A stretch of DNA of 26,762 nt from a virus. The notes under the pieces are model-generated. The model did not search any database. It saw only the letters and a program-made list of their open reading frames with translations, and was not told the DNA's origin. Position 1 is the first letter of the stretch. Each line of letters begins with the position of its first letter. Both the position numbers and the translations under genes were made by a program. Location of the stretch: IMG/VR virus record IMGVR_UViG_3300021961_000529, positions 1-26,762 of that record; one strand, given 5' to 3'. Of this stretch, positions 8,769-25,518 are shown piece by piece.

Positions 8769-8946
8769 AATCAGTTCTCCTTCCGTTTAAGTTACAAAAT
8801 AGTCTTTCGACTGCTTTACGGTTTTTGTCCTATAAAGGGAAACCTCATCACTTACGGTGACTAATCGGATTGTTAAGGCATCACGCCCACCACACAGATT
8901 GTCCTTTCGGTTCTGACGTAGTTAGGTAACTATACCATATAAATAG
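8769..8946 (-). promoter_or_regulatory. Structured leader of the capsid gene
   Basis: This is the longest gap inside the late gene block. On the coding strand it holds several small hairpins. TAACTAT/ATAGTTA arms (8927-8933 and 8943-8949) straddle the scaffold stop. A TCAC/GTGA stem lies at 8848-8851 and 8857-8860. An AGTC-GAAA-GACT stem with a GNRA-type tetraloop lies at 8801-8812. The very strong capsid ribosome binding site follows. I find no convincing -35/-10 pair. The region may be an mRNA processing or stabilising leader that raises capsid yield (inference). Confidence 0.45.
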
Positions 8947-19873: not shown

Positions 19874-20702
19874 ATCGTTTCCATATATCTCTTAGTTGAA
19901 ACATCACTTCACTAATGCTTTCAGGTGGGTTGCAAGCGGCGGCAAAGGCTTGTGCTTCTGCTTGTGCATACTCAAAACTTTCACCACGCTTGCGAATAGC
20001 AATTAACATCTTTACCAATGCTTCATGCCTGTCACCTTCGCCTACGCCATAGCGCAACGTGCCTGAATACTTTCCTTGATAGGTAGACGGCTTGTAATCC
20101 ATCTTAAATTCAGGTTTTTTTGGGCGTTCCAACCCTAGCCCTTCCCTAATTTCAGCCATCGTGTAGGGTTCACATGAAACCTGACTTAGCACTTTGATAG
20201 GGTATGGCTTGGCTTTGTGGTGATAAAAACCTGCAACACGCATCACACGTGGCAAGTCTTTGACCTTTGGGTCAGCGTTAAACTTCTTAGCCAACGCCTG
20301 TTGATACAGTGTGAATGATGCCTTGGGCATATCCTTAACCAACCAATAGCAGTGGTATTTTCCAAAACTTGTGTTGACAATAATGTGCGGTTGTAGGTTA
20401 AACTGTTCAGGCAGGGGTGCGCCATCAAGGTCAATGAACACACTGCGGACATTAGTGATGCAGTCGGTGGTTCTCCCTCTGCCGTTAGTTTGATTGACGG
20501 TGAAGAACACCCCTGCACCCTGTCTGTTCAAATCCCACAGTTCAGCAATGTGTTCTTGGATAGTGCCATGTAACTGACGTATCAGTTTGCGGTTCTTACC
20601 CTTGTCATCAAAGGTCTGAAAACTGTGGTGACTACCAAACGCATCTAAGAACCAAGCGTAATGACTATTTTGATTGAACATCGTCTTCCATCCATTCATC
20701 AT
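19860..20702 (-). CDS. RepB-type (AEP superfamily) primase (280 aa)
   Basis: The sequence VFFTVNQTNGRGR ... NVRSVFIDLDG (residues 65-94) gives the catalytic acidic pair D91/D93 of an archaeo-eukaryotic-type primase. GKYHCYWLVKD (114-124) supplies the catalytic His. DLPRVMRVAGFYHHK (149-163) is the third motif of the plasmid RepB-like primase family. It would make primers for phage replication. I keep the start at 20702, but ATG 20681 with GGAAG upstream is possible. It overlaps the DUF1376 gene by 38 bases and the helicase by 14. Loss of any of these residues is not seen. Confidence 0.88.
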   Translation of the reverse strand: MMNGWKTMFNQNSHYAWFLDAFGSHHSFQTFDDKGKNRKLIRQLHGTIQEHIAELWDLNRQGAGVFFTVNQTNGRGRTTDCITNVRSVFIDLDGAPLPEQFNLQPHIIVNTSFGKYHCYWLVKDMPKASFTLYQQALAKKFNADPKVKDLPRVMRVAGFYHHKAKPYPIKVLSQVSCEPYTMAEIREGLGLERPKKPEFKMDYKPSTYQGKYSGTLRYGVGEGDRHEALVKMLIAIRKRGESFEYAQAEAQAFAAACNPPESISEVMFQLRDIWKRYGPA

Positions 20703-21078
20703 TAGGTTTGTTCCAACGTGCTTCAGCCCCTTTCTTACCTGCGGCTTGCCGCTTCGCCCTGTTTATTGCCTGTTCCCTGCGTTCTTCTTCCGCTTGGATA
20801 CATACAAGGCTGACGCTACCGTCACGTTCCTTGACCTGTTTGAACAGGTGCATCATCTTAGGCAACATCTTGTCTATCTTTTCGATGGTGCAATTACACA
20901 TCTTAGATAGGATTTCAGGGTCAAGTGGTATCTTGTGTCCACGCCAACAGTGGCAATACAACAAGACATACGCGCCCTGTTCTTCAAGCGACATCCGCAT
21001 CCTGCTTGGGTCACTTATCCAATCGCTTGCGTAAAACTGAAACGCAGGCGATTGCTCATCATTGGTTCGTTTTCTCAT
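20665..21078 (-). CDS. DUF1376-type replication-associated protein (137 aa)
   Basis: The N-terminus FQFYASDWISDPSRMRMSLE, then EQGAYVLLYCHCWRGHKIP, is the DUF1376 signature found in the N-terminal part of many phage replication proteins; the fold resembles a winged helix. The C-terminal region is basic (INRAKRQAAGKKGAEARW) and could bind DNA. It is the first gene of the minus-strand replication operon, so it may be the origin-binding protein or helicase loader (inference). A strong operator-containing promoter lies just upstream. Confidence 0.85.
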   Translation of the reverse strand: MRKRTNDEQSPAFQFYASDWISDPSRMRMSLEEQGAYVLLYCHCWRGHKIPLDPEILSKMCNCTIEKIDKMLPKMMHLFKQVKERDGSVSLVCIQAEEERREQAINRAKRQAAGKKGAEARWNKPNDEWMEDDVQSK

Positions 21079-21096
21079 TTGTTTCTATCGCAGTTA

Positions 21097-21144
21097 TTAA
21101 GTTTAGTTAAATGACATCATATATACCTAGGTTAAGTTTGTCAA
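21097..21144 (-). promoter_or_regulatory. Promoter-operator of the replication operon
   Basis: Minus-strand TTGACA (21139-21144), 17 bases, TATGAT (21116-21121): nearly ideal sigma70. The operator TATACCTAGGTTAA (21122-21135 in plus orientation, 12 of 14 to the palindrome) fills the spacer. A weaker copy, TTAAGTTTAGTTAA (21097-21110, 10 of 14), lies at the expected start point. Occupation would block RNA polymerase. This is the clearest repressor-type arrangement in the window. Confidence 0.75.
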
Positions 21145-21189
21145 TGCCCAATTTAAGAAGACGGGTTAGGGCTTCTACTATCTTGGTAT

Positions 21190-21224
21190 GAAGATGAAGG
21201 TGAAGTTGAAGATGAAGATGAAGG
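21190..21224. repeat. Purine-only GAAGATGAAG repeat tract
   Basis: About 35 bases built of GAAGAT/GAAGGT/GAAGTT hexamer units; nearly all purine on the plus strand apart from the T in each unit. It may be a slippage-prone tract or a protein- or RNA-binding element. No coding role is supported. Confidence 0.6.
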
Positions 21225-21257
21225 GGATAAAATCGCATTGGCTTTTTTTAATAACGC

Positions 21258-21279
21258 CATAGCATTGCTATAGCATTGC
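21258..21279 (+). repeat. Tandem 11-bp repeats (C/T)ATAGCATTGC
   Basis: CATAGCATTGC (21258-21268) is followed immediately by TATAGCATTGC (21269-21279). They are flanked by T-runs. Two adjacent copies one helical turn apart could bind a replication initiator or regulator as iterons do, but two copies are too few to call an origin. Confidence 0.5.
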
Positions 21280-21290
21280 CATTTTTTAGG

Positions 21291-21335
21291 GCAAAAAATA
21301 AGGGGTAGGCACAATGAGGATAAAAGCCTACCCCT
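21291..21335 (-). terminator. Intrinsic terminator of the Cro-like gene
   Basis: A perfect 10-pair stem (AGGGGTAGGC at 21301-21310 with its complement at 21326-21335) and a 15-base loop are followed on the minus strand by TTATTTTTT. It lies 43 bases past the stop of the Cro-like gene and isolates that gene from the replication operon, which has its own promoter 150 bp further on. Confidence 0.75.
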
Positions 21336-21377
21336 AAACCGCTTTGCTCTAAGGCTAACTGCGAATAGCCCTGCACC

Positions 21378-21587
21378 CTAGCGGTTGGGTGTGATAATCA
21401 AATCAGGGCGAATGTATTCTACTGTGTAATCGCCTAGTTTGGCAATCTGAAAAGCCCTTAGTGGTGGTATGGTTTGCCACTTTGATACGGCAGGGTGGCT
21501 AATACCCAACATACGGGCAAGGTTTTTGCCGCCGTAATGCGACACGATTTCCACCTTTCGTTCCTTCGCAATTTCAAATTTATTCAT
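21378..21587 (-). CDS. Cro/YdaS-like DNA-binding regulator (69 aa)
   Basis: Residues 16-42 (SHYGGKNLARMLGISHPAVSKWQ) form a helix-turn-helix with the Cro-type recognition helix, followed by IPPLRAFQIAKL and EYIRPDL, the standard ending of Cro/YdaS-like proteins. It should bind a palindrome as a dimer. It is a single-gene unit with its own promoter and terminator, divergent from the SSB operon. No CI-type partner or integrase is present, so it looks like a timing regulator in a lytic phage or the remnant of a lysogeny switch. It is the best candidate to bind the TTAACCTAGGTTAA sites, one of which lies in the divergent control region. Confidence 0.85.
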   Translation of the reverse strand: MNKFEIAKERKVEIVSHYGGKNLARMLGISHPAVSKWQTIPPLRAFQIAKLGDYTVEYIRPDLIITPNR

Positions 21588-21622
21588 GTCTGACCCATCA
21601 TCGTGGTAATTTACTTGGCTTA

Positions 21623-21651
21623 ATATTACAGGTATAATTAACGCAAGTCAA
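21623..21651 (-). promoter_or_regulatory. Promoter of the Cro-like gene
   Basis: Minus-strand TTGACT (21646-21651), 17 bases, TAATAT (21623-21628). A degenerate operator TTAACGCAAGTCAA (21638-21651, 10 of 14) overlaps the -35, allowing autorepression. The untranslated leader would be about 29 bases. Confidence 0.6.
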
Positions 21652-21661
21652 CACATAACGC

Positions 21662-21690
21662 TTGACACGCAGTTTAACCTACGTTAATAT
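21662..21690 (+). promoter_or_regulatory. Promoter-operator of the SSB-nuclease operon
   Basis: TTGACA (21662-21667), 17 bases, TAATAT (21685-21690). The operator TTAACCTACGTTAA (21674-21687, 13 of 14 to the palindrome) covers the spacer and part of the -10. It is divergent from the Cro-like gene. A leader of about 29 bases ends in AGAGGT before the ATG. Confidence 0.75.
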
Positions 21691-21725
21691 ACAAACTCCA
21701 ATAGTAAATCAGAAAGAGGTAGATT

Positions 21726-22346
21726 ATGACTGCAATTATGGCAACAACAAACTTTGGCGGGGACGAAAAGCGTTACCCTGACGTATCCGTAGGGGTGCAT
21801 CAGGCGCGTTGCGTCCGTGTCATTGACTTAGGCACACAAAAAACTGAATACCAAGGTGATGTATCTTGGAAACGTCAGTGCATGATTATTTGGGAAGTGC
21901 CTTCCGAAACAAACAACAACGGTGAACCGCTGACCATCAGCAAGTTCTACACGCTGTCGCTACATGAGAAATCCAATCTTGGTATTGACCTAACAGCATG
22001 GCGTGGACGTGCCTTCACTGAAATCGAAAAGCAAGGCTTTGACATTGGCAAGTTAGTCGGTGTGCCTTGCATGATAAATGTGATGGAAGGTAAGAACGGC
22101 AGACCACGTGTCACTAGCCTAATGCCTTTACCCAAGACAGCGGACATCCCTGCGCAGTATCACGAAAGCATCCTGTTCAGCATTGATGACTTCCAAAAGG
22201 GTGAACGTGGTGCGTTCAACAAGTTGGCAGATGGTATCCGTAACATCGTCCTGCGTTCCAAAGAATTGGAAAACTTTAACGCAGATGCAGAACACACTGG
22301 TGAAGACATTCCTGACTTTACCAATGATGAAGACATTCCATTTTAA
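21726..22346 (+). CDS. Phage single-stranded DNA-binding protein (206 aa)
   Basis: The body is beta-rich and suits an OB-type fold (GVHQARCVRVIDLGTQKTEY, KRQCMIIWEVPSE). The last residues, DFTNDEDIPF, copy the acidic DDDIPF tip of bacterial SSB, which recruits host repair and replication proteins. Related proteins occur next to nucleases in many marine phages. First gene of an operator-controlled rightward unit, followed after 11 bases by a Cas4-like nuclease. A good AGAGG site supports the 21726 start. SSB function is strongly suggested by the tip; the fold is inferred. Confidence 0.8.
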   Translation: MTAIMATTNFGGDEKRYPDVSVGVHQARCVRVIDLGTQKTEYQGDVSWKRQCMIIWEVPSETNNNGEPLTISKFYTLSLHEKSNLGIDLTAWRGRAFTEIEKQGFDIGKLVGVPCMINVMEGKNGRPRVTSLMPLPKTADIPAQYHESILFSIDDFQKGERGAFNKLADGIRNIVLRSKELENFNADAEHTGEDIPDFTNDEDIPF

Positions 22347-22357
22347 GGGGGGGCGAT

Positions 22358-23245
22358 ATGAAATTTACAAACACATCAAACCTGCCTGACGCGATTGTCC
22401 GTGCAGTAACCAATGACCCATATGATGCTAGTGGTAGTGACATTTCTGCAACACGTTTGTTGCAACCACCTTTGATAAGGGTGCTTGAACAGCGTCATTG
22501 GGATGACATTGAAGAAGACGTGTCTGACCGTATCTTTAGTTTGATTGGTCAGTCTGTGCATCACACCATTGAACGTGCGGCACAGGGGGATGACATGGTT
22601 GAAACCCGTTTGTTTGTTAACAACGAACACACCCAAGGTTGGACGCTATCAGGTCAGTTTGACTATCTGTCAAAAGATGGTCAGTTGCTAGACTTCAAGA
22701 CCACATCCGCTTGGTCAGCCCTTGATGCTATGCAGAATGGCAAAGGGGAATGGGAAGAACAGTTAAACATCCTTGATTATCTTATCCGTCACAACAAGGA
22801 CAAGGTAAAGCATGAGGTCAAATCACTTGGCATCATGGCTATCCTACGTGATTGGTCAAAGATGAAGGTCTTGACTTCAGATAATTACCCACGTCAACAG
22901 GTTGTAATGATACCTGTGCGCCGTTGGACACCTGAAGAACAAGATGCCTATGTCATGGGGCGTATTGCTCTGCACAAGTCAGCCATGCTTCAGGAACAGC
23001 CACCTATCTGTAGCCCTGAAGAACGATGGAACAAGCCTGATACCTACGCCGTGATGAAAGACGGGCGTAAATCTGCCGTCCGTGTCTTGCCTTCCAAGGA
23101 AGAAGCAAAGCAATGGATGAAAGACAACAACATGGTTGAAGGTAAAGGATGTATGATTGTTGAACGTAAGGGTGAAGACACACGTTGCGCACACTACTGC
23201 CGCGTGAATAAGTTTTGCCCACATTGGAACAATGTTTCTTTTTAA
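22358..23245 (+). CDS. Cas4/AddB-like PDDEXK exonuclease with probable Fe-S cluster (295 aa)
   Basis: The nuclease core reads HHTIERA (68-74), GQFDYL with D102, LLDFKTT with D112 and K114, and the Q-x5-Y helix EWEEQLNILDYLI with Q135 and Y141. This is the RecB/Cas4 order of motifs. At the C-terminus C265, C277, C281 and C287 (in TRCAHYCRVNKFCPHW) look like iron-sulfur ligands as in Cas4 and AddB, though all four are C-terminal with none near the N-terminus. It would resect DNA ends for recombination with the SSB-like partner. No CRISPR array or cas gene is nearby. AAGGGGGGG precedes the ATG. Confidence 0.87.
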   Translation: MKFTNTSNLPDAIVRAVTNDPYDASGSDISATRLLQPPLIRVLEQRHWDDIEEDVSDRIFSLIGQSVHHTIERAAQGDDMVETRLFVNNEHTQGWTLSGQFDYLSKDGQLLDFKTTSAWSALDAMQNGKGEWEEQLNILDYLIRHNKDKVKHEVKSLGIMAILRDWSKMKVLTSDNYPRQQVVMIPVRRWTPEEQDAYVMGRIALHKSAMLQEQPPICSPEERWNKPDTYAVMKDGRKSAVRVLPSKEEAKQWMKDNNMVEGKGCMIVERKGEDTRCAHYCRVNKFCPHWNNVSF

Positions 23246-23265
23246 TTGTAACAATTTGTAACAAT
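23246..23265 (+). repeat. Perfect tandem 10-bp repeat TTGTAACAAT
   Basis: Two adjacent copies (23246-23255, 23256-23265) fill the whole gap between the nuclease stop and the ATG of the next gene. There is no ribosome binding site, because the repeat occupies its place. Each unit is nearly self-complementary (TTGTWACAA). The repeat may be an operator, a translational repressor site, or a duplication product. Confidence 0.7.
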
Positions 23266-23485
23266 GAATGATGACTTCAAATTAACACGTGACCCTTTAG
23301 TTTCAGCTATTCTGAAACGTGCCAATGACCGTGCTAATAAGGGGTTGTTAGATTATGGCGGCACGATGGCAGACGCAAAGAAACCTGTGATTGATTGGAT
23401 AGGGGATGCACAGGAAGAATTGTGGGATGCCATCGTGTATCTTGAAAAAGTAAAGCATTTACTAGGGGGTAATGATGCCACTTAA
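23264..23485 (+). CDS. MazG-like / NTP pyrophosphohydrolase-type small protein (73 aa)
   Basis: The segment RANKGLLDYGGTM, then WIGDAQEELWDAIVYLEKVK (residues 44-63), gives the EE-x2-DAIVYLEK helix of all-alpha NTP-pyrophosphatase (MazG-like) proteins, cut to about half the usual size. Many phages encode such a short form. It may hydrolyse dNTPs or alarmones, or be only a structural relative, because other MazG acidic residues are not clear. No ribosome binding site precedes it; a tandem repeat does. The stop lies 14 bases inside the next gene. Confidence 0.6.
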   Translation: MNDDFKLTRDPLVSAILKRANDRANKGLLDYGGTMADAKKPVIDWIGDAQEELWDAIVYLEKVKHLLGGNDAT

Positions 23486-23624
23486 ACGAGGTAGTTCTGA
23501 TAAAACAATCAGTCAAAACATCAAGGCTTTGAACAAAGAAGGTGTTCCACGCAACCAAGCCATTGCAATAGCCTTAGAAAAAGCAAGGAAAAAACAAGAA
23601 GAAAAGCAAAAATCCAATTCTTGA
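23472..23624 (+). CDS. Small basic phage protein, MPLKRGSS family (50 aa)
   Basis: It has two in-frame start codons at 23472 and 23475; GGGGG sits just before them. The protein begins MMPLKRGSSDKTISQNI and continues with GVPRNQAIAIALEKARKK, a pattern I recognise from very many phages as a short conserved Lys-rich protein of unknown function. The overlap with the preceding frame indicates coupled translation. Likely nucleic-acid-associated, by composition only. Confidence 0.8.
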   Translation: MMPLKRGSSDKTISQNIKALNKEGVPRNQAIAIALEKARKKQEEKQKSNS

Positions 23625-23625
23625 C

Positions 23626-23653
23626 TTCACAAAATAATTTATTCTGATAAAAT
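23626..23653 (+). promoter_or_regulatory. Lysis cassette promoter
   Basis: TTCACA (23626-23631), 16 bases, TAAAAT (23648-23653), with TGA directly before the -10 making an extended -10. The expected start is near 23660, inside or at the end of the left arm of the inverted repeat at 23652-23678. No TTAACCTAGGTTAA-type operator is present here, unlike the other phage promoters, so this unit is under separate control. Confidence 0.6.
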
Positions 23654-23678
23654 AACCCTATGAATACTATAGGGTTAT
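23652..23678 (+). promoter_or_regulatory. Inverted repeat masking the lysis ribosome binding site
   Basis: Perfect 10-bp arms ATAACCCTAT (23652-23661) and ATAGGGTTAT (23669-23678) flank a seven-base loop. The AGGG at 23671-23674, seven bases before the ATG at 23682, is the only ribosome binding site candidate and lies within the right arm. In RNA that includes both arms it would be paired. In RNA started at the local promoter most of the left arm is missing. As DNA it could equally be an operator over the start point. Confidence 0.65.
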
Positions 23679-23681
23679 ATC

Positions 23682-23912
23682 ATGGCTACGCGGGGTAGAC
23701 CCCCTAAAGCCCAAGTTCCAACAATTCATCCTGATGCAATCATGGTGAAGTTGGATACTATTGAAAAAATCCTAGAGCATAATCGGAAAGACATCGAAGA
23801 CCTAAAGCAACAAGTGTCGATGGGAAGGGGGGGTATCAAAGCCATCTTCATCATCGGCGCAATCATCGCCGCCATCGCTACTGCGTATGGTTTATGGAAG
23901 GGGGTTCGCTAA
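23682..23912 (+). CDS. Small membrane protein with AT-hook-like N-terminus, first gene of lysis cassette (76 aa)
   Basis: N-terminal RGRPPK (residues 4-9) is an AT-hook-like minor-groove binding motif. Residues 23-47 form a short coiled coil (LDTIEKILEHNRKDIEDLKQ), and residues 53-71 are a single membrane helix ending in a basic tail. This may be a holin or holin modulator by position and topology, but an AT-hook on such a protein is odd. The stop overlaps the next ATG (TAATG). Confidence 0.65.
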   Translation: MATRGRPPKAQVPTIHPDAIMVKLDTIEKILEHNRKDIEDLKQQVSMGRGGIKAIFIIGAIIAAIATAYGLWKGVR

Positions 23913-24307
23913 TGGCTTTACCACTACTAGGATTTCTTGGAACGCTGTTCAAGAACCCTATCACTAGCGTCATCGTTGATAAGACTATCGGCGCAGTTCA
24001 GCATGAATTAGAGAAAAAGAAAATCATTCGTGGCATGGAAATTGAAGCCGCGAAATCCATAGACATTGCAAAGATTGACCTAATGGCTGAACAAGTCAAG
24101 GCATCTAAAGGGTCATGGAAAGATGAATGGCTTACGCTAGTTTTCACAGGCATATTGATTGCCCACTTCACCCCGTGGACTGTAGACCACATGATACATG
24201 GATGGGATATATTGAAAGATGTCCCTGAAATGTTTTGGTATATCGTCTTAGCAATAGTATCGGGTTCGTTTGGACTTAATGCTATGGGTAAGTGGAAAGA
24301 TAAGTAG
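23912..24307 (+). CDS. Holin candidate (131 aa)
   Basis: It begins with MALPLLGFLGTLFK, has a charged helical middle (about residues 25-65), then two C-terminal membrane helices around WLTLVFTGILIAHFTPW and EMFWYIVLAIVSGSFGLNAM. This matches the three-segment holin type found in GTAs and alphaproteobacterial phages, in which KDEW precedes the first helix. I start at 23912, overlapping the previous stop as TAATG with a GGGGG site; the longer 23894 form is less likely. It would control timing of lysis by opening the inner membrane. Confidence 0.75.
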   Translation: MALPLLGFLGTLFKNPITSVIVDKTIGAVQHELEKKKIIRGMEIEAAKSIDIAKIDLMAEQVKASKGSWKDEWLTLVFTGILIAHFTPWTVDHMIHGWDILKDVPEMFWYIVLAIVSGSFGLNAMGKWKDK

Positions 24308-24315
24308 GTAATGTT

Positions 24316-24774
24316 GTGGCAGACCCAATCACGATTGGTCTTGCCGCCTTCAGTGCTATCAAAGCAGGGGTAGCCGCAGGGAAGGAAATACAAAGTCTAG
24401 CAGGGGACATTGGTTCGCTATGGGATAGCATTGAAGCCATCAAAGCAGACCACACCAAAAAGAAATCTAAGAAAATACTGTCTGTTAATGAAGAAGCAAT
24501 GGAAACATTCATTGCTAAGAAGCAGGCAGAAGACATGGAAAACCAAATCCGCGAATTGGTAATCAACACCCGTGGTCTTGACGCATGGCATGAATTGATA
24601 CGCCTGCGTGTTCAGATAAAGAAAGACCGTATTGCCGCAGAAAAGAAAGCCAAGGCTGACCGCAAAGAAACTTTAGATACTATCCTTATATCTCTACTCA
24701 TCCTTGCAGGTGTAACCATAATAGGTTTGTTCTTTTGGTTTATCATTAAGGCAAAGCAGGAATCACCCGCATGA
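24316..24774 (+). CDS. Membrane-anchored coiled-coil protein of lysis cassette (152 aa)
   Basis: It starts with GTG at 24316, eight bases after AGG; the ATG at 24311 is in another frame. The N-terminus is small-residue rich (ITIGLAAFSAIKAGVAAG), the middle is a long charged helix (about 40-120), and residues 122-146 are a strong membrane helix. The topology resembles spanin or antiholin-type partners but lacks a signal peptide or lipobox. Function not recognised. Confidence 0.6.
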   Translation: MADPITIGLAAFSAIKAGVAAGKEIQSLAGDIGSLWDSIEAIKADHTKKKSKKILSVNEEAMETFIAKKQAEDMENQIRELVINTRGLDAWHELIRLRVQIKKDRIAAEKKAKADRKETLDTILISLLILAGVTIIGLFFWFIIKAKQESPA

Positions 24775-25043
24775 CAGCCTTCAGCAAAAACCTTTTGTTA
24801 GCACTTATCCCACTAGCACTAGCGGCAGTGGGCTATTTGTTTCAGGCATCTATTGCCATGCACGACAAACTATCTGTGATGGAACAGAAGATGTCGATAC
24901 TTGTTGATATGGATAATAAGATTATTCCTAGCCCTGACAATGCTATAGCACGTAACCAAATTAGAATGGAATTGCAAGATGACTTGCATGATTTGGATAA
25001 ACGGTTATCACTATTGGAAGCTATTATTCTAGGGAAGAAATGA
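24771..25043 (+). CDS. Small membrane-anchored protein, spanin-like topology (90 aa)
   Basis: The N-terminal signal-anchor (LLLALIPLALAAVGYLFQA, residues 8-26) is followed by a charged helical region (HDKLSVMEQKMSILVDMDNK ... DLDKRLSLLEAI). An inner-membrane helix with a periplasmic coiled coil just before the endolysin is what an i-spanin (Rz) looks like, but no partner Rz1 lipoprotein is seen. ATGA overlap with the preceding gene. Conserved in marine phages by memory; function inferred. Confidence 0.6.
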   Translation: MTAFSKNLLLALIPLALAAVGYLFQASIAMHDKLSVMEQKMSILVDMDNKIIPSPDNAIARNQIRMELQDDLHDLDKRLSLLEAIILGKK

Positions 25044-25053
25044 AAGGTAACAC

Positions 25054-25518
25054 ATGACTGAATATAAATCGCCGCATGAACGTGAAGAATGGCAAGACCT
25101 TCTGCACCGCATCAAAGAACATGAAGGCTTTCGCAACACTATCTATCTTGATACATTGGGTAAAGCTACAATCGGATACGGTCACTTAGTTGTTGACGAT
25201 GATGCCTATATAGAAGGGCAGGTTTATTCTGAAGAATTGCTATACAAACAATTCGGTTTGGATTTCGATAAAGCGTTCCTACAAGCACAGGAATTGTGGG
25301 AAGACTATCACCTACCGCACACCGCACAAGAAATCATTATTGAAATGGTGTTTCAGTTGGGGATGGGCGGGGTATCTAAGTTCCGCAAAATGTGGGAAGC
25401 GTTGAAAGACCGTGACTTTGAGGAAGCCGCCGCGCAAATGCTAGACAGCCGTTGGGCTAAACAGACCCCACGCCGATGTCAGGAAATGGCTAGTCGGATG
25501 GCTTCTTGTTCTGAATAG
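25054..25518 (+). CDS. Endolysin, T4-type lysozyme (GH24), 154 aa
   Basis: The catalytic triad has the exact T4 lysozyme spacing: E24 (HEGF), D33 (YLDT) and T39 (ATIGYGH). It cleaves the MurNAc-GlcNAc bond of peptidoglycan. There is no signal peptide or SAR anchor, so release through the holin is needed. The AAAGG site is good. The last 29 bases overlap the end of a minus-strand gene, an unusual arrangement. Confidence 0.93.
   Translation: MTEYKSPHEREEWQDLLHRIKEHEGFRNTIYLDTLGKATIGYGHLVVDDDAYIEGQVYSEELLYKQFGLDFDKAFLQAQELWEDYHLPHTAQEIIIEMVFQLGMGGVSKFRKMWEALKDRDFEEAAAQMLDSRWAKQTPRRCQEMASRMASCSE

Follow-up and report, generated by a model that had tools for sequence, protein, structure and literature searches.

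How is a lysis cassette regulated when it lies directly behind an early operon on the same strand? The question is raised by the 26,762-base virus record analysed here in full (the window; GC content 44%), which belongs to an uncultured phage of podovirus type with T7-like tail genes. Tail, capsid, head-tail adaptor and terminase genes occupy the minus strand. On the plus strand, an early operon (21726–23624) comprising a 206 aa ORF, a PD-(D/E)XK exonuclease and ORFs of 73 and 49 aa leads directly into a five-gene lysis cassette. The 206 aa ORF (21726–22346) carried the earlier label 'SSB', and its PHROGs matches are all of unknown function. The early promoter (TTGACA-17-TAATAT, 21662–21690, plus strand) is accompanied by Cro-type operator sequence; it lacks a TG and differs in kind from the extended −10 promoter of the capsid gene. 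A gene for a P22 Cro-like repressor (21378–21587) is divergent from the early operon, and repeated TTAACnnnnGTYAA-like sites lie between the two (region 21378–21725), as they do in relatives. A terminator scan found no terminator-like site on the plus strand from 20484 to 25203, in agreement with a preliminary description of this DNA that had seen none between 23624 and 23682. No such site thus separates the early operon from the first lysis gene (gene 1), and the 57 bases between them (23625–23681) hold an extended −10 match and an inverted repeat.

All five cassette genes are on the plus strand. Gene 1 (23682–23912) encodes a 76 aa protein with an N-terminal RGRP and a single C-terminal transmembrane (TM) segment, the one hydrophobic segment beginning at residue 54 of 76 and being preceded by a coiled coil, as judged by eye. 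A search of phage records with this protein returned no match, and Pfam gave no XhlA match up to E = 5. Gene 2 (23912–24307; 131 aa from ATG 23912) overlaps gene 1 through TAATG and has a very weak match to GTA_holin_3TM. It is followed by gene 3 (24316–24774; 152 aa, C-terminal TM, phrog_32327), gene 4 (24771–25043; 90 aa, N-terminal TM) and, as fifth gene, the lysozyme (PF00959, 25054–25518).

The repeat is a perfect 10-bp one with a 7-nt loop (GAATACT) between its arms. The left arm ATAACCCTAT (23652–23661) overlaps the end of the −10 element and the discriminator, and the right arm ATAGGGTTAT (23669–23678) contains AGGG (23671–23674), the only candidate Shine-Dalgarno sequence of gene 1 and a weak one (−3.7 kcal/mol with the anti-Shine-Dalgarno). 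No other perfect repeat with arms of at least 10 and a loop of 3–12 occurs in the window, and Markov shuffles give an expectation of 0.33 such repeats per whole window, which makes chance placement on a start region very unlikely. The helix continues outward beyond the arms by pairing of TGATA (23645–23649), which includes the TG of the extended −10, with TATCA (23678–23682), up to the A of the gene 1 ATG at 23682, so that AGGG and the base of the start codon are both buried. The fold z-score of the hairpin is −3.48, and none of 200 shuffles was as stable. An Rfam search returned no family and a nucleotide search of phage records no match. An exact search for the repeat over viral contigs recovered the closest relative (L001, below) and an unrelated 139-kb contig, in which a repeat identical in its arms and in loop length (L005:936–962) resembles a terminator, with a T run behind it.

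The local promoter consists of a −35-like TTCACA (23626–23631), a 16-nt spacer and the extended −10 TGATAAAAT (23645–23653), in which TG (23645–23646) precedes TAAAAT (23648–23653). It matches at 10 of 12 positions plus the TG and is one of just four extended −10s of at least 5/6 in the window; the number of promoter calls in this region is near chance. The seventh base after the −10, A23660, is the predicted +1. The preliminary description had placed a perfect 10-bp repeat at 23652–23678, the only candidate ribosome binding site in its right arm, a −10 at 23648–23653 and a transcript start near 23660. All four were recovered, the start as a prediction from the letters, and the repeat proved in addition to be unique of its size in the window.

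Folding calculations separate the two kinds of RNA that this arrangement would produce. To open the start region of gene 1 takes about 17 kcal/mol when the RNA reads through from upstream, as against about 5 when it begins at the predicted +1. When the start position was swept along the sequence, 5′ ends at or before 23652 gave 16–18 kcal/mol and 5′ ends at or after 23658 gave 4.5–6 kcal/mol, the switch from a buried to a free start falling between 23655 and 23658. Among the 35 gene starts in the window, that of gene 1 has the highest cost of opening the Shine-Dalgarno region, and shuffling the sequence upstream of it 400 times never gave a cost as high. The earlier proposal that read-through RNA folds over the site and locally started RNA does not is supported in silico by these energies. 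The further proposal, that holin and lysozyme are both kept silent, holds for the first ORF, the single-TM gene 1, and fails for the lysozyme: the downstream lysis genes, lysozyme included, have starts more open than that of gene 1 (ΔG_open 1.7–2.4 for the lysozyme). The hairpin masks gene 1 only.

A hairpin in this position could instead be a transcription terminator, acting on early read-through (plus strand) or on antisense late RNA (minus strand). The T run behind the identical repeat in the unrelated 139-kb phage contig speaks for such a function, as does TTTATC, which comes after the repeat on the minus strand. The plus strand, by contrast, has no U run (TTATATCATGG), the terminator scan calls the hairpin on neither strand, and the hairpins of relatives are not followed by U runs. 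Both readings were rejected for want of a U run, and we regard a terminator as highly improbable. A fold arising by chance, or a 5′ mRNA stabiliser with no regulatory role, is given equally little credence: the per-lineage evidence in relatives is modest, but the window's result of 0 in 400 shuffles and, in several lineages, the placing of a hairpin at the start codon argue against it.

Relatives, gathered by exonuclease, lysozyme and cassette searches, fall into two gene orders. In the first (L002, L095), the cassette is inverted: it is preceded by a large late structural gene and runs convergently to the early operon. The inverted stretch is L002:5783–7757, corresponding to 23682–25518 of the window. 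Here there is no adjacent promoter and no hairpin, and the gene 1 start is open. In the second (the window, L001, L006, L087, L088, L286 and L297), the cassette follows the early operon. L001, the closest relative (proteins 93–98% identical), has the same repeat with unchanged arms; the intergenic stretch differs at 1 of 57 positions, against 9 of 150 in the preceding gene, and L001 is too similar for a test of covariation between the arms. L006/L087 and L088, whose gene 1 is about 60% identical and whose gene order is that of the window, have a buried start (ΔG 8–12; 3–15 of 400 shuffles) and an extended −10, TGGTATTAT, that puts the predicted +1 on the A of the ATG, the same A being the base of the stem. 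Each of the six outer stem pairs is formed in L006 and in L088 alike, with A-U replaced by U-A and U-G by C-G; as these are two distinct sequences in all, the conservation of pairing is suggestive. In L286/L297, AGGAG and the first two bases of the AUG lie in a 9-pair stem with a C-G to U-G change and with TGGTAAAAT in its loop (12–26 of 400 shuffles), and an extended −10 again gives a predicted +1 on or next to the AUG. The arms in both groups are unrelated in sequence to those of the window. Across lineages the base of the stem stays with the start codon, and its position relative to the −10 varies.

These shuffle statistics are modest for each lineage and were chosen after the fact; five relatives in which the gene 1 start is false or uncertain (L271, L289, L255, L240 and L236) were given no weight. 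Scans with genes 2 and 3 and the lysozyme found no further close relative of this gene order beyond L006, L087 and L088. In more distant members of the second order, where gene 1 directly follows another gene, starts are mostly open. Exceptions are L098, with a promoter and no masked start, and L114, with a masked start and no nearby promoter. As to coding sequence, the N-terminal RGRP of gene 1 (23682–23712), AT-hook-like though the product is a membrane protein, and with a weak Pfam match below cutoff, is kept in the window, L001, L002, L006, L088 and L095 and is not found in L286/L297. A putative 12-codon ORF, MNTIGLYHGYAG (23660–23698, plus strand), begins exactly at the predicted +1, runs across the start of gene 1 in another frame and is identical in L001. 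It might be a leaderless uORF or, given a CTATGnnTAC similarity, a relic of a leaderless start of the L006/L088 type.

The relatives also bear on the main rival explanation, in which the repeat acts as DNA: a dimeric repressor such as the Cro-like protein would sit over −10/+1 and hold the lysis promoter off until late. A symmetric site from −10 to about +19 occupies the classical operator position, the phage does encode a P22 Cro-like protein, and palindromic operators likewise change symmetrically. Yet the Cro-type sites of the early promoter (TTAACnnnnGTTAA) are, by eye, absent from the lysis promoter, nor were the TTAAC-type half-site pairs at about 21630–21690 found by eye in the lysis repeat, and the window holds no second copy of the repeat. 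Between lineages the arms differ fully, whereas the Cro-like helix is nearly unchanged. The asymmetries in L006 and L297 are G-U pairs, by which RNA pairing is kept and DNA symmetry broken, and the repeat is positioned by reference to the start codon, not the promoter. An operator thus appears unlikely, and pairing in the RNA is the reading followed below.

Whether the local promoter works, and when, decides between a switch and a mere brake. With no working promoter at 23660, the hairpin would hold gene 1 translation at a constant low level in all transcripts, and there would be no early/late switch. The +1 is a sequence prediction, and promoter calls of near-chance number are compatible with this reading; the 10/12 match plus TG, one of four such extended −10s in the window, and the extended −10s of the buried-start relatives, which also place +1 on the AUG or beside it, make it in our estimate rather improbable. 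The class of the promoter was compared with that of the major capsid gene (8768, minus strand), for which most relatives share an extended −10 promoter near TTATATGGTATAxT with no clear −35. A profile of this promoter ranked the lysis promoters of L006 and L088 26th and 14th in their own loci, and these resemble the capsid-gene promoter; the window's lysis promoter fits weakly (rank 102 in the window) and is not clearly in the late class by this profile. Late activity in the window is therefore only possible, and the promoter, being σ70-like, could fire early. The capsid promoter itself heads a long leader (8769–8946, minus strand) parts of which are conserved in 11 relatives (GGTTTCCC...AGGACAAAAACCG); it has no Rfam match and looks like an undescribed structured leader.

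In combination, the computed hairpin, opening energies and 5′-end dependence, the lack of a terminator-like site and the buried starts in two other groups of relatives lead us to regard it as probable, with moderate confidence, that a translational gate with the logic of T4 gene e heads the lysis cassette behind the early operon. RNA reading through from the early promoter would hold both arms and fold over the Shine-Dalgarno sequence and start codon of gene 1. RNA from the local extended −10 would begin at about 23660, lack the left arm and leave the start site free, the promoter being presumably active mainly late, or simply weak. Gene 1, with a single TM and a layout like that of SPP1 gp24.1/XhlA, would be the step that sets lysis timing. 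Genes 2–5 would be affected perhaps only by polarity or by translational coupling, which the TAATG and ATGA overlaps in the cassette would allow. Early read-through could yield lysozyme from its open start, provided that neither coupling nor polarity prevents this.

A broader proposal is more tentative, and we hold it as possible but on balance doubtful: in this phage group, hairpins that enclose the promoter tend to arise afresh when a cassette with its own promoter directly follows the early exonuclease operon. In some lineages (L006, L088, L286) the local RNA would be leaderless. Good translation would then be limited to RNA with the AUG at its 5′ end, and the hairpin would be free in sequence as long as it pairs. 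Should the gate in the window be real, uncultured and largely marine phages with promoters of the host type have come to the solution of T4 gene e on their own, the same trick possibly being repeated in some relatives of this phage. A regulatory element would then be tied to a genome rearrangement, the placement of the cassette behind late or early genes, which clearly predicts which relatives carry the hairpin.

Among isolates, the closest by exonuclease (60%) is Pelagibacter phage EXVC032P Baldr (OQ414636.1), in which lysis genes likewise follow the exonuclease on one strand; unlike the window, its gene 1 homologue has neither a buried start nor an adjacent extended −10. In SPP1, endolysin and holin gp26 are early and gp24.1, thought to set lysis time, is late (PMC6316719). 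The likeness to the window is that endolysin may be early, with a holin component bearing a single C-terminal TM as the timing step; gene 1 resembles gp24.1/XhlA in this layout, not by a Pfam match. SPP1 gates by promoter position; in the window the gate would be a hairpin, which on gene 1 alone could do the timing job of gp24.1. Early masking of start sites, with late RNA lacking the 5′ part of the hairpin, is described for T4 I-TevI, I-TevII, I-TevIII, soc and segB and for Aeh1 mobE (PMC2988022); these hairpins differ from that of the window in their T4-type late promoters and in the genes masked. At T4 gene e, folding of the longer early RNAs over the start lowers lysozyme synthesis by a factor of 100, and late transcripts start without the 5′ arm (PMC3014915). 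The window shares, on paper, folding of early RNA over the start of a lysis gene and an adjacent promoter whose RNA lacks the 5′ arm. It masks a 76-aa TM protein where T4 masks lysozyme, its promoter is a σ70-like extended −10 where T4 uses the late promoter TATAAATA (absent near 23650), and there is no shared sequence. The likeness to T4 gene e drawn in the preliminary description therefore stands for the logic, through the masking and release computed here and the relatives, and falls for homology: the window hairpin is, to judge from gene, promoter and sequence, not a member of the T4 gene e type by descent. On the best reading, masking of the T4 gene e type is its closest precedent, realised here with a different gene and a different promoter.
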